NCBI GenBank assembly: GCA_016794615.1 | Contig: JAEUJO010000111.1 | Span: forward strand, 1-37,262 | Source: Pseudonocardia sp. | GTDB lineage: Bacteria; Actinomycetota; Actinomycetes; Mycobacteriales; Pseudonocardiaceae | DNA length: 37,262 bases | Direction: 5' to 3' | The notes under the pieces: model-generated | Seen by the model: only the letters and a program-made list of their open reading frames with translations | Databases searched by the model: none | What the model was told of the DNA's origin: nothing | Program-made: the position numbers and the translations under genes | Part shown: positions 7,971-28,835 of the stretch, in pieces | How the letters are laid out: each line of letters begins with the position of its first letter | Numbering within the stretch: the first letter of the stretch is position 1

Positions 7971-7979
7971 CGCGGCGCG

Positions 7980-8100
7980 GTGACACCGACTCGCTCGCTG
8001 CGCTCACTCACCGCGCTCACTCACCGCACTCCCTCGCTGCGCTCGGTCGGCGCTGCGCGCAAGCGCTGTGACACCGACTCGCTCGCTGCGCTCACTCACT
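7980..8100 (-). repeat. Dispersed junction repeat, copy 3 (one full and one partial unit)
   Basis: On the minus strand a complete unit (8100 to about 8028) contains GTGAGCGCAGCGAGCGAGTC, GGTGTCACAGCGCTTGCGCG, CAGCGCCGACCGAGCGCAGC and GAGGGAG. A second, truncated unit begins with GTGAGTGAGCGC. This is the clearest copy and defines the consensus. It lies just upstream of the rsmB start. Confidence 0.85.
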
Positions 8101-8201
8101 GGTGCACCCTCCTCGTGTCCGAGCCCGGGTCTCATCGCGCTCCCCCGCTGCGCTCGGTCGGCGCTGCGCGCGAGCGCCGTGACACCGATCCGCTCGCTCA
8201 T
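8004..8201 (-). CDS. 65-codon ORF made of two junction-repeat units
   Basis: The frame begins ATG at 8201, overlapping the fmt stop (ATGA). It encodes [20 protein letters not shown] twice (the second copy reads [20 protein letters not shown]), separated by [12 protein letters not shown]. It ends with TGA 34 nt before the rsmB start. The overlap with fmt and the repeat-supplied GAGGGAG sites suggest that ribosomes could run through it and help initiate rsmB. No family is recognised. It may be translated as a by-product only. Confidence 0.35.
8139..8197 (-). repeat. Dispersed junction repeat, copy 4 (immediately after fmt)
   Basis: The minus strand reads GAGCGGATCGGTGTCACGG, CGCTCGCGCGCAGCGCCGAC and CGAGCGCAGCGGGGGAGC. 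The fmt stop TGA at 8200-8198 takes the place of the repeat's first TGAGCGAGCG bases, so the repeat begins exactly at the end of the gene. Confidence 0.85.
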
Positions 8202-13825: not shown

Positions 13826-14711
13826 GCACCCAGCCACGCACCTTCGTCGAGCCCTCGGACTCCCCGTAGGACCAGGCCTTCCCCTTCTTCTTCTCGACCC
13901 GGAACACATCGCCCCAGCTGAGCGAGGCGAGCACCGCAGTCTCAGCCTTGGGTAGTGGGTCCCTCACCACGCTCAACGAGTCCGCACACACCGCACGGCG
14001 CACCGGCTCGGGTGAGGAGACGACAGGCGGGGCCGTGCGCGTCGGAGCGGCGACCGGGGCGACCGGGGCGACCGGGGCGACCGGGGCGACCGTGGGTGCT
14101 GGCACCTGTGCCCGAGCGGCAGCCGGGATAAGCGGACGTGCCGGCACGTCCGCTGGATCGTCAGCCGACAACCGGGAAAATCCCATGGCGCCGATCGCAC
14201 CCAGGGCCAGTATCGCCAGTCCGAGTGCGGCGACCCGCCGGGGAACCCTGCAAGATCGCCATACTGCCGGCAACCTCGACGGCTCGGGCCCGGTCGCCGC
14301 GGGGATGTCCAATTCGGTCGTGGCATTCAGCCCGACTGATGGCAGCTGCTCAGCTGGGTGTTCGCCATCGCAATTTGCAGCACTGGATCCGTTCGTGTTC
14401 GGGCGCGAGGAGAGAAGCCGCGCCTGATCCCATTGCTCCCATCGGCGCTCCCACGGCTGTTCGTCGAGCCGGAGAAGCCTGACCAATGCGATGAACAGCG
14501 GCTTCTCAGGCAGGCTCTTACGGTTGACCAGCCAGTCCTGCAAAGTGGTGTGAGCCGGTCCTTCGCTGGGAAACTGCCGGCGAAGCTCGGCCGCCAGGGC
14601 CCGCAGCGAAATCCTGTGCCGCACGCGCTGCTCCCGCAGCTCGTCCCAGCACCTTCTGGCCAGGCTCGCTGGATCGTCACCGAGGGGCGGTGAACGGTCA
14701 CGGCGGTGCAT
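13788..14711 (-). CDS. Helix-turn-helix / single-membrane-helix / extracellular SH3-like protein
   Basis: A 307-residue protein of three parts. Residues about 16-100 form an all-helical region with a helix-turn-helix-like stretch (ISLRALAAELRRQF followed by HTTLQDWLVNRKSLPEKP). Residues about 160-181 are one membrane helix preceded by basic RVPRR, which puts the N-terminus in the cytoplasm. After a Val-Ala-Pro linker (about 207-222), residues 242-304 look like a bacterial SH3-type domain (GDVFRVEKKKGKAWSYGE, then VRGWVLSKWLQPMC). It is bracketed by Cys242 and Cys304, a likely disulfide. ATG 14711 is chosen for its GAGGTGG 5 nt upstream; the frame extends to 14873. Codon use is less GC-biased than in neighbours. 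I infer a trans-envelope sensor or regulator. It is divergent from the secreted-protein gene at 15335. Confidence 0.7.
   Translation of the reverse strand: MHRRDRSPPLGDDPASLARRCWDELREQRVRHRISLRALAAELRRQFPSEGPAHTTLQDWLVNRKSLPEKPLFIALVRLLRLDEQPWERRWEQWDQARLLSSRPNTNGSSAANCDGEHPAEQLPSVGLNATTELDIPAATGPEPSRLPAVWRSCRVPRRVAALGLAILALGAIGAMGFSRLSADDPADVPARPLIPAAARAQVPAPTVAPVAPVAPVAPVAAPTRTAPPVVSSPEPVRRAVCADSLSVVRDPLPKAETAVLASLSWGDVFRVEKKKGKAWSYGESEGSTKVRGWVLSKWLQPMCDQP
14051..14095 (-). repeat. 9-bp tandem repeat encoding a (Val-Ala-Pro)n linker
   Basis: CGACCGGGG is repeated four times and followed by a variant CGACCGTGG. It is in frame with the membrane protein and encodes its extracytoplasmic stalk. 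Confidence 0.9.
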
Positions 14712-21096: not shown

Positions 21097-24416
<3,320 letters not shown>

Positions 24417-24417
<1 letters not shown>

Positions 24418-25538
24418 CAGCGGCCCTTCCCGTTCTCCATCAGGTCCACGAACCGGTCGAACAGGTCCGCCGCGTCGTGCGGGCCGGCCGCCGCCTCGGG
24501 GTGGTACTGCACGCTGAACGCCGGGGCGTCCAGCAGCGCCAGGCCCTCGACGCAGCCGTCGTTCGGGCAGGTGTGGGTGATCTGCGCGGGGCCGAACGGG
24601 GTGCCGAACCGCTCCCCCGCCTCGCCCTCGACGGCGAACCCGTGGTTCTGCGCAGTGATCGACACCGTGCCGGTGGCGTGCTCGATCACCGGGATGTTGA
24701 CGCCCCGGTGCCCGTAGCGCAGCTTGTAGGTGCCCCGGCCCAGCGTGCGGGCGAGGATCTGGTTGCCGAAGCAGATGCCGAACAGCGGGATCCGGCGCTC
24801 GAGCACCTGGCGGGTGAGCGCGACCGGGACCTCCGCGGTCGCCGGGTCACCCGGGCCGTTGGCGAGGAAGAACCCGTCCGGGGCCAGCTCCTCGATCCGC
24901 TCGACGGGCGTGTGGGCGGGCAGCACGTGGGTCTCGACGCCGCGCGCGGCGAACATCCGCGGGGTGTTGGACTTGATCCCGACGTCCAGCGCCGCGACCC
25001 GGAACCGGGTCTCACCGTCGGCGGGCACGACGTACTCGCGCGGTGTCGAGACGGCGCCGAAGAGGTCCGCGCCGAGCATCGACGGGCCCGAGCGCACCCG
25101 GTCGACCAGCTCGGCGTCCGGCGCGAGGGAGTCACCGGAGAACACGCCGGCCTTCATCGCGCCCCGCTCGCGCAGGTGCCGGACCACCGCGCGGGTGTCG
25201 ATCCCCGCGAGGCCGACGATCCCCTGGCCCTCCAGCGCGTCGGCGAGCGACCGGCGGGAGCGCCAGCTCGACGCCGTCCGCGACGGGTCGCGCACCACGT
25301 AGCCGGCCACCTGGATGCGTGCCGACTCGTCGTCCTCGTCGTTCCAGCCGGTGTTGCCGATCTGCGGGGCGGTCGCGACGACGATCTGGCCGTGGTAGCT
25401 GGGGTCGGTCAGCGTCTCCTGGTAGCCGGTCATCGCCGTGCAGAAGACGGCCTCGCCGAGGGTCTGCCCCACCGCGCCGTAGCGCTCGCCCCGGAAGAGC
25501 CGGCCGTCCTCGAGGACCAGCAGTGCCGGGCCCGTCAT
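24417..25538 (-). CDS. carA: Carbamoyl-phosphate synthase small chain (glutaminase)
   Basis: A 373-residue glutamine amidotransferase subunit. The N-terminal CarA domain begins [20 protein letters not shown] and contains [14 protein letters not shown]. The class I glutaminase domain (about 185-370) has the nucleophile in [11 protein letters not shown] and the His/Glu pair in [16 protein letters not shown] 25538 matches relatives. A TTG at 25553 overlaps the pyrC stop (TTGA) and has GGAAGG 7 nt upstream, so it may also be used. No gene lies between pyrC and carA, unlike mycobacteria, where a membrane-protein gene intervenes. Confidence 0.97.
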
Positions 25539-25549
25539 GCTGCGCCCAC

Positions 25550-26848
25550 TCAATTGGCAACCTTCCCGTCGCGCGCGGTGATCCGACCGCGCAGCACCGT
25601 CGCGGTCACCGTCGCCGGCAGCCGCATGCCCTCGTAGGGCGTGTTCGTCGAGCGGCTGGCCAGCGCCGCGCCGTGCACCGTCCAGATCCCGTCCGGGTCG
25701 ACGAGGCAGAACGTCGCCGGCTCACCGACCGCGATCGGGCGTCCCTGGTCGGCCAGGCCGCCGATCTCCGCGGGGCGCTCGGACATCACCCGGGCGACAC
25801 CGCGCCAGTCCAGCATCGCCGTCTCGACGCAGGCGGCGACGACCACCGACAGCGCCGTCTGCAGCCCCAGCATGCCCGGCCGGGCGGCCGCCCACTCGGT
25901 GTCCTTGTACTGCGCGGCGTGCGGAGCGTGGTCGGTGGCCACGACGTCGATCACGCCCTCGGCGAGGGCCGCGCGCATCGCGGCGGTGTCGTCGCCCGTG
26001 CGCAGCGGCGGGTTGACCTTGTGCACGGGGTCGTAGTCGCGCAGTGCCGCGTCGGTGAGCAGCAGGTGGTGCGGGGTGACCTCGGCGGTGACGCGCACGC
26101 CTGCGGCCTTGGCGGCCCGCAGCACGGCGATCGTGTGGGCCGACGACACGTGGCAGACGTGCAGCCGCGACCCGGCCTCGCGGGCCAGCGCGCAGTCGCG
26201 GGCGACGATCGTCTCCTCCGCCGCGGCAGGCCACCCGGCCAGCCCGAGCTGCGCCGCGACGACGCCCTCGTGCGCCTGCGCGCCCGCGGTGAGCCGGTGG
26301 TCCTCGGCGTGCTGGGCGATCACCGCGTCGAGCGAGGAGGCGTACTCCAGCGCCCGACGCATGACGACGGGGTCGTGCACGCACCGGCCGTCGTCGGAGA
26401 ACACCCGCACCCGGGCACGGGAGGCGGCCATCGTGCCGAGCTCGGCCATCCGCACGCCCGCGAGCCCGACCGTGACGGCGCCGACCGGGTGCACGTCGAC
26501 CAGCCCGACCTCCTCGCCGAGGCGGCGCACGTGCTCGACGACGACGGCGGAGTCGGCCACCGGGTCCGTGTTCGGCATCGCGAAGACCGCGGTGTAGCCG
26601 CCGAGGGCGGCGGCGGCGGAGCCGGTGGCGACGGTCTCGGACTCCTCACCCCCGGGTTCGCGCAGGTGGGTGTGCAGGTCGACGAGGCCGGGCAGCAGCA
26701 CGAGGCCGTCGGCGTCGAGGGTCTCCACCGACGCCGATCCGGCAAGGCCCGGCCCGATCTCGGCGACGACACCGTCGCGGACCAGGACGTCGACGGGCTC
26801 CCCCTCGCCGTAGGGCCTGGCGGAGCGGATGAGCAGCTCGGCGGTCAT
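25550..26848 (-). CDS. pyrC: Dihydroorotase
   Basis: A 432-residue zinc amidohydrolase (class I type). It shows the metal motif [11 protein letters not shown], the substrate-binding [10 protein letters not shown], the later metal His residues in QHAEDH and [10 protein letters not shown], and the catalytic Asp in [14 protein letters not shown]. The C-terminal strand region carries [17 protein letters not shown] 26848 has GGAGGAG 5 nt upstream. Unlike most junctions of this operon, it is separated from pyrB by 133 bp, which contain a strong hairpin and tandem repeats. Confidence 0.97.
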
Positions 26849-26875
26849 CGGTGCTCCTCCGTCGATTGGTCGGCC

Positions 26876-26964
26876 GGGGGTTCCAGCGGGGGTTCCAGCG
26901 GGGGTTCCAGCAAGGTGGCCTTGCTGCAATCCGATTGGAGAAGGGCCACCTTGCTGCAACCCCC
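26876..26964 (-). repeat. Tandem 12-bp repeats plus long hairpin between pyrB and pyrC
   Basis: Three exact copies of GGGGGTTCCAGC lie at 26876-26911. The last copy also starts a 21-bp stem. Bases 26900-26920 pair with 26944-26964 with one mismatch, around a 23-nt loop that itself repeats TTGCTGCAA. In the pyr mRNA this forms a very stable structure just before the pyrC ribosome-binding site. It could attenuate, process or stabilise the transcript, or be a dispersed palindromic element. Confidence 0.85.
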
Positions 26965-26981
26965 GGCGACCGGTGGGCGAG

Positions 26982-27947
26982 TCACGCGGCCGCTCCCGCA
27001 AGCAAGTGGTAGAGCACCGCCATGCGCACGTGCACCCCGTTCTGCACCTGCGCCAGCACGGCGCTCGACGCGGCGTCCGCCACCGCGGGCGCGATCTCCA
27101 TGCCGCGCACCATCGGCCCCGGGTGCAGCACCACGGCGTGGTCGGGCAGCAACGCGGCACGGCGTTCGGACAGCCCGTAGCGCACCGCGTACTCCCGCGC
27201 CGACGGGAGGAACGCGCCGTGCATGCGCTCGGCCTGCACCCGCAGCATCATCACGGCGTCCAGGCCCGGCAGCTCATCCTCGAGCGCGTCGCCCACCCGG
27301 CACGGCCACGCCGCGACGCCGACCGGCAGCAGCGTCGGCGGCGCCACGAGCACGACCTCGGCGCCCAACGTCGCGAGCAGGAAGACGTTCGAGCGGGCGA
27401 CCCGGCTGTGCAGCACGTCCCCGACGATCCCGATCCGCCGACCGGCGATCCCGCCGAGCCGGTCCCGCACCGTCGCCGCGTCCAGGAGCGCCTGGGTGGG
27501 GTGTTCGTGGGTCCCGTCACCGGCGTTGACCACGCTGGTGGACGACCCCGGACCGGTCGGCCCGACCGCGCCCGTCGCCGCGTCGCGCTCCGCCCAGTGC
27601 GCCATCCGGTGCGCCGCGCCGGAGGCCGGGTGCCGCACGACGATGCAGTCGGCGCCGATCGCGGCCAGCGTCGCAGCGGTGTCGCGCAGGGACTCCCCCT
27701 TGCCGACCGACGACCCGCTCGCCGCCACGTTGATCGTGTCCGCGCTCATCCACTTGCCCGCGACCTCGAAGGAGACACGGGTGCGCGTGGAGTTCTCGTA
27801 GAACATCGTGACGACCGTGCGCCCGCGCAGCGTCGGCAGCTTGCGCACCTCCCGGCCCAACAGCGCCTGCTTGAGCCGGTCGGCGGTGTCGAGCAGCCCG
27901 ATCGCGGACGCGGCGTCCAGGTCGGTCACCGACAGCAGGTGCCTCAC
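26982..27947 (-). CDS. pyrB: Aspartate carbamoyltransferase catalytic chain
   Basis: A 321-residue enzyme joining carbamoyl phosphate and aspartate. It has [14 protein letters not shown] (carbamoyl-phosphate site S-T-R-T-R), [32 protein letters not shown] and [13 protein letters not shown]. An insertion of about 12 residues ([12 protein letters not shown]) precedes the NAGDG motif. GTG 27947 overlaps the pyrR stop (GTGA), which implies coupling. No regulatory pyrI is present. Confidence 0.97.
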
Positions 27948-28552
27948 GAACCCGGCCCCGCGCTCTCGGCGGCACGCCGCAGCGCCACCCCGTCGCGGCC
28001 GTCGGTCTCGACCAGCAGCACGACGATCGACTCGCCCTGCGCGGTGGGGACGTTCTTGCCGACGTAGTCGGCGCGGATCGGCAGCTCGCGGTGCCCGCGG
28101 TCGACGAGCACGGCCAGCTGCACCGCGCGCGGACGCCCGTGCTCACCCAGCGCGTCGAGCGCGGCACGCACCGTCCGGCCGGAGAACAGCACGTCGTCGA
28201 CCAGCACGACCAGCCGGTCGTCGAGACCGCCGTCGGGCAACGCGGTGTCGCCGAGCGGGCGGGCGGGGCCGCGGCGCAGGTCGTCGCGGTAGAGGGTGGG
28301 GTCGACCGTGCCGACGACCGGGGCGACGCCGGTGAACTCGGCGATCGCCACGGCCAACCTGCTCGCCAGGACCGCTCCGCCGGTGGGGATGCCGACGATC
28401 ACGAGGTCGTCGGGGTTGTCCGGCCCGAAGGTGGTCTTCTCGATGATCTGGTGCGCGATGCGCGCGACGGTGCGGGTGACGTCGGCGGCACTGAGCAGCT
28501 CCCGGTCGGGAGCGGCGGTGCGCCGGGGGTCCCCGCGGCGGTCGATCGCCAC
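27944..28552 (-). CDS. pyrR: Bifunctional pyr operon regulator / uracil phosphoribosyltransferase
   Basis: A 202-residue type I phosphoribosyltransferase fold that binds pyr mRNA in response to UMP. The PRPP loop is [40 protein letters not shown] and [14 protein letters not shown] are also typical of PyrR. GTG 28552 is set by AAGGAG 6 nt upstream; the long frame upstream is unrelated. The mRNA leader contains a PyrR-binding hairpin that pairs with this ribosome-binding site, so PyrR probably represses its own translation and, by coupling, pyrB and later genes. Confidence 0.97.
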
Positions 28553-28558
28553 GGAACT

Positions 28559-28593
28559 CTCCTTCCCCGCCTCACCGGACGGGCTTAAAGGAA
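28559..28593 (-). promoter_or_regulatory. pyrR: PyrR-binding RNA hairpin that sequesters the pyrR Shine-Dalgarno sequence
   Basis: Minus-strand RNA has CGUCCGGUGAGGCG (28581-28568) against the PyrR consensus ARUCCNGNGAGGYU. The only two differences (A to C, U to G) form a compensating C-G pair. It folds with the hexaloop CGGUGA (28577-28572), an upper stem 28583-28578/28571-28566 and a purine bulge AAG (28586-28584) on the 5' side. The lower stem UUCCUUU (28593-28587) pairs with G-AAGGAG (28565-28559), the ribosome-binding site. Bound PyrR would stabilise this fold and block translation. Confidence 0.85.
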
Positions 28594-28650
28594 CGGACCC
28601 GACCGCCGTCGCGGAACGGACCCGGGCGGCACCGGGCCGCCGTCGCCGAC

Positions 28651-28660
28651 CGTATACCAA
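28651..28660 (-). promoter_or_regulatory. Candidate -10 region for the pyr operon
   Basis: The minus strand reads TTGGTATACG, with TATACG as a -10-like hexamer about 100 bp before pyrR and upstream of the PyrR hairpin. No matching -35 is visible, so this is tentative. Confidence 0.3.
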
Positions 28661-28835
28661 CTGCCTCCGCGCGCTCCCGGAGGGGACGTCTCGGTCCCGG
28701 GTGGTCGCTTTCGGTACACGGCGAACCGGTTCCGGATCGCGCACGACACCCTCAGGTAACGCCCGGATCGCCGATGTCGATCAGCCGTTCGAGTGGACTC
28801 GACCTGTTCGGACCGCTCGACGGGCGCGTTGTGGC

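Follow-up and report, generated by a model that had tools for sequence, protein, structure and literature searches.

A gap between pyrB and pyrC, filled with short tandem repeats and a long hairpin, interrupts the pyrimidine operon of this Pseudonocardia, which raises the question of whether a mobile palindrome landed there or an RNA signal altering the ratio of PyrB to PyrC is kept there. Both possibilities had been put forward in the original prediction, made from the window, that is, the whole stretch of 37,262 nucleotides analysed here. With a probability of roughly 0.77, the element belongs to a family of dispersed, non-autonomous double-hairpin repeats of 55 bp in Pseudonocardia.

The pyrB-pyrC gap and its palindrome

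The operon follows the order pyrR-pyrB-pyrC-carA-carB on the minus strand (Table 1). According to the longest ORFs, there is a 4-bp overlap both between pyrR and pyrB and between pyrC and carA, with carB directly after carA; the 133 bp between pyrB and pyrC, against neighbours that overlap or abut, are indeed the sizeable gap in a packed operon that had been described. A sigma-70 promoter was sought in this gap and none was found, and an Rfam scan of the window returned nothing at gathering scores.

Table 1. Coordinates of the pyr operon and of the element between pyrB and pyrC (positions in the window).
Feature	Positions	Strand	Remarks
carB, carbamoyl-phosphate synthase large chain	21097-24417	-	
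carA, carbamoyl-phosphate synthase small chain	24417-25553	-	longest ORF; start uncertain
pyrC, dihydroorotase	25550-26848	-	
pyrB-pyrC intergenic gap	26849-26981		133 bp
GGGGGTTCCAGC three times, tandem copies of the element's edge	26876-26911	+	third copy belongs to the hairpin arm
Extended palindrome with GGGGG / CCCCC edges	26900-26964	-	footprint of covariance model R1
55-bp core	26905-26959	-	arm TTGCAGCAAGG, TGG, arm CCCTTCTCCAA, centre TCGGA, arm TTGCAGCAAGG, CCA, arm CCTTGCTGGAA; operon strand
pyrB, aspartate carbamoyltransferase	26982-27947	-	
pyrR-like phosphoribosyltransferase	27944-28744	-	longest ORF; start uncertain

The details of the element agree with the original prediction. 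There are three exact 12-bp repeats (GGGGGTTCCAGC at 26876-26887, 26888-26899 and 26900-26911), the last of which is the outer part of the left arm of the stem. The stem (26900-26920 paired with 26944-26964) has one mismatch in 21 positions, and the loop repeats arm sequence, TTGCTGCAA being found both at 26921-26929 (loop) and at 26951-26959 (right arm). The period-12 stretch, the longest in the window, covers 37 nt, and the best match between 33-nt arms in the window comprises 29 pairs; as 60 Markov-1 sequences gave no more than 23 nt and 25 pairs, respectively, neither is due to chance. Compared with shuffles, the folding of the 65-nt element has a z of -7.0 as RNA and -7.5 as DNA. The window contains other repeats as well: one around CACTCCCTCGCTGCGCTCGGTCGG and GCGCTGTGACACCGACTCGCTCGC is found several times (7975-8198, also 2200, 9154 and 34519), and a nine-base tandem, GGGCGACCG, occupies 14048-14101.

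Copies in the host genome and its relatives

A genome-wide search for the palindrome retrieved many further copies. There are 70 occurrences of the core 13-mer, CAGCAAGGTGGCC, in the host genome, against 3 of a reversed control, and they often form inverted pairs at a fixed distance. A total of 41 host copies were aligned, one of them broken off on one side, and 39 of these served to build a covariance model, R1, which detects about 45 copies of full length in the 4.36-Mb genome, among them the one in the pyr operon (C192:26900-26964, E 8.7e-22), plus a few that are partial or in tandem. The flanks of the copies are mostly unrelated to one another, while the copies share a common plan of 55 bp, composed of an 11-nt arm, TGG, an 11-nt arm, a 5-nt centre, an 11-nt arm, CCA and an 11-nt arm. 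Each copy consists of two inverted hairpins of about 25 nt with complementary triplet loops, which may alternatively pair with each other into a single long hairpin. A target-site duplication would show as an excess of flanks that match, and none is clear at any of the offsets tried. At two contig ends (L050 in C317 and L051 in C337), the sequence stops shortly past a copy that breaks off into similar-ended sequences (GATTGCAAGTTTGACC and CCTTGCAAAGTTGATC), as though the palindrome had been hit by an insertion sequence; upstream of the element at L050, tandem CTGAACGCCGCTTTCGGTGCACTCAACG-like repeats adjoin it.

All 41 aligned host copies are mismatched at pair 21:35 or 22:34. This mismatch was considered as a universal recognition mark and rejected, as it is present in only 19 of 40 copies from other species, and for the same reason it is probably a feature of the lineage. 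Among the copies inside the host genome there is no compensatory change, which is expected from their recent common descent. The 40 copies (39 of them distinct) taken with the model from nine other Pseudonocardia genomes provide such changes: in the long-hairpin register, 92% of positions in the distinct copies are paired, against 72% with partners shuffled, most stem positions show two or three standard pair types, and in G023 TGG/CCA has co-changed to TGA/TCA. The arms differ between species through compensatory changes over much of the long stem.

Copies matching R1 at E<=1e-8 are found in 24 of 62 Pseudonocardia genomes, host included. The opposite, CCA-first arrangement (RGCCACYTT-N-AARGTGGCY) is present in 28 of these 62 genomes, with as many as 458 matches in one of them and hardly any for a control pattern; it is nearly always 37 bp long among the matches listed, and recurs repeatedly in two other genera of the host's family. 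At the pyrB-pyrC junction itself, most congeners have no such element. In 21 of 25 relatives the two genes overlap, adjoin or leave a palindrome-free gap of no more than 41 bp, and an order-level relative from another family (L081) has an 89-bp gap with no such element by eye. Three congeners (L062, L070 and L072) carry a CCA-first palindrome between pyrB and pyrC, and the site is occupied by a palindrome in 4 of the 16 Pseudonocardia genomes examined. The simplest reading is that of separate insertions into a tolerant junction; this occupancy could also mean that a hairpin is selected for there.

The 12-bp repeats had been described as joined to the hairpin; they turn out to be no separate module, but duplicates of the element's own edge. 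One-sided tandem duplications of this kind accompany 15 of the 41 host copies. Their unit starts inside the edge and continues into the flanking sequence, the period ranging from 12 to 51; 15 of the 82 sides are affected, where a flank-swap null gives 4.7% (p about 6e-6). Other species show them less often (3 of 80 sides, with 0.9% in the null). At pyrB-pyrC, the edge would have been duplicated later to give the three 12-mers, most simply via replication slippage at the base of the hairpin.

Copies between and within genes

From the perspective of genomic context, established from individual loci and with a home-made gene finder (a simple scorer), the intergenic copies lie in co-directional (17), convergent (7) and divergent (6) gaps, convergent gaps being over-represented with respect to 35 background gaps (p 0.02). 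The gene finder places eight of the 41 copies within ORFs, two of them sharing one gene. For the seven ORF copies whose frame was checked, the sequence to either side scores as coding in a single frame, the score being weak in stretches near the element. Pfam assigns five of these proteins to glycerate kinase, CobN/magnesium chelatase, an alpha-amylase domain (by reading, a TreY-like protein), CDC48_N plus AAA and 2-oxoacid dehydrogenase acyltransferase. Homologues of CobN and of the glycerate kinase are found without the stretch at the same place, and the CobN proteins of G006 and G008 contain a related element elsewhere. Six of the seven in-frame copies read QQGG...IGLxQGHLAA or nearly so (p about 0.007 against an expectation of one third, from a small number of copies and with ORFs called by the simple scorer), which suggests a preferred reading frame for copies inside genes. 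In the amylase-family ORF (L042), an expansion rich in Pro-Gly and Pro-Ser comes right after the peptide of the palindrome.

Candidate origins and known counterparts

The idea of a mobile palindrome that landed between pyrB and pyrC is supported at the level of the family, by the number of host copies, the related repeats in other Pseudonocardia and the element-free junctions of congeners. Movement as such is what we infer from these, with no excision or fresh insertion observed and no target-site duplication. New sites would receive a copy of the whole 55-bp unit, probably in the form of a folded single strand on which an enzyme other than a Y1/RAYT transposase acts, and the copy at pyrB-pyrC would be a tolerated passenger that separated two adjoining cistrons. 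A broader and more tentative proposal, on balance doubtful, is that of a family-wide class of double hairpins that spreads without any Y1/RAYT, by a mechanism based on single strands or on the replication fork, and that adds a short preferred-frame peptide to conserved enzymes.

Other explanations have to be weighed against the dispersed repeat. A regulatory RNA hairpin, kept at this site to stabilise, process or attenuate the pyr mRNA, is unlikely. As RNA, the element is predicted to have a very high stability (-45 kcal/mol over its 65 nt), and the junction is occupied repeatedly within the genus, but the gap lacks an intrinsic terminator (a G+C-rich stem plus T run was sought, with no U-tract and no terminator match), most congeners do without the element, and the copies located within genes as well as in gaps of all three orientations (convergent, co-directional, divergent) speak against a single dedicated function as RNA. 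Even less probable is a genuine REPIN/REP population, for which a RAYT (TnpA-REP) or an IS200/IS605 TnpA working in trans would provide the transposase. This would fit the REP-like inverted doublets that form hairpins in many, mostly intergenic copies, as well as the four Y1_Tnp (PF01797) matches in the host genome. However, none of these matches lies beside a copy of the repeat, the host Y1 genes resemble short IS200/IS605 types or fragments and none is palindrome-flanked, and the column composition of the 41 copies reveals neither GTAG nor CGTC as a conserved edge tag. Furthermore, Y1_Tnp occurs in 5 of the 62 Pseudonocardia genomes, is absent from most palindrome-rich ones, and is missing from all seven other family members, most of which are palindrome-rich; as a mobiliser it was rejected on this distribution. 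No enzyme that mobilises the repeat emerged from the analysis, which covered the Y1 family. The remotest candidate, a MITE derived from a DDE-transposase insertion sequence whose terminal inverted repeats match, would equally be small, dispersed and palindromic, but no target-site duplication was found, each half is itself a hairpin, the length is fixed and, among the copies read (a non-exhaustive set), none flanks a transposase gene as a terminal repeat.

The dispersed double hairpin has counterparts among described repeats. Like REPINs (Bertels and Rainey 2011, PMC3116915), it consists of many dispersed, mainly extragenic units of two inverted REP-like hairpins; unlike them, it has no GTAG tag, a fixed length of 55 bp with a 5-nt centre and complementary triplet loops, two opposite arrangements (TGG-first and CCA-first) and, in most carriers, no RAYT partner. 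CGTC-tagged REPs (Di Nocera et al. 2013, PMC3733652) are also palindromic repeats apparently without a dedicated transposase, some of them inside genes, but the Pseudonocardia repeat lacks the CGTC tag at its edges; the main text of that study mentions neither Actinobacteria nor the four actinobacterial genera looked for. Rickettsia palindromic elements (RPEs; PMC10969869) share with the seven copies described above the in-frame insertion into protein-coding genes, whereas the Pseudonocardia repeat is shorter (55 against about 150 bp), mostly intergenic and from other bacteria. The repeat works as a REPIN does, and within genes as an RPE does; since neither a GTAG/CGTC tag nor a Y1/RAYT partner is found, it is assigned to neither. 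Among the titles and abstract openings listed from a limited open-access literature on actinobacterial palindromic repeats, nothing describes this family.

The copying of REPINs is generally attributed to RAYTs, and here the same plan is found without a RAYT, in dozens to hundreds of copies per genome, which makes this repeat family a natural test of whether such palindromes need a RAYT transposase at all. The duplications at its edge offer a way of tracing slippage at hairpins, and CobN, glycerate kinase and a TreY-like enzyme, with their in-frame copies, represent an actinobacterial case of palindromes entering proteins.
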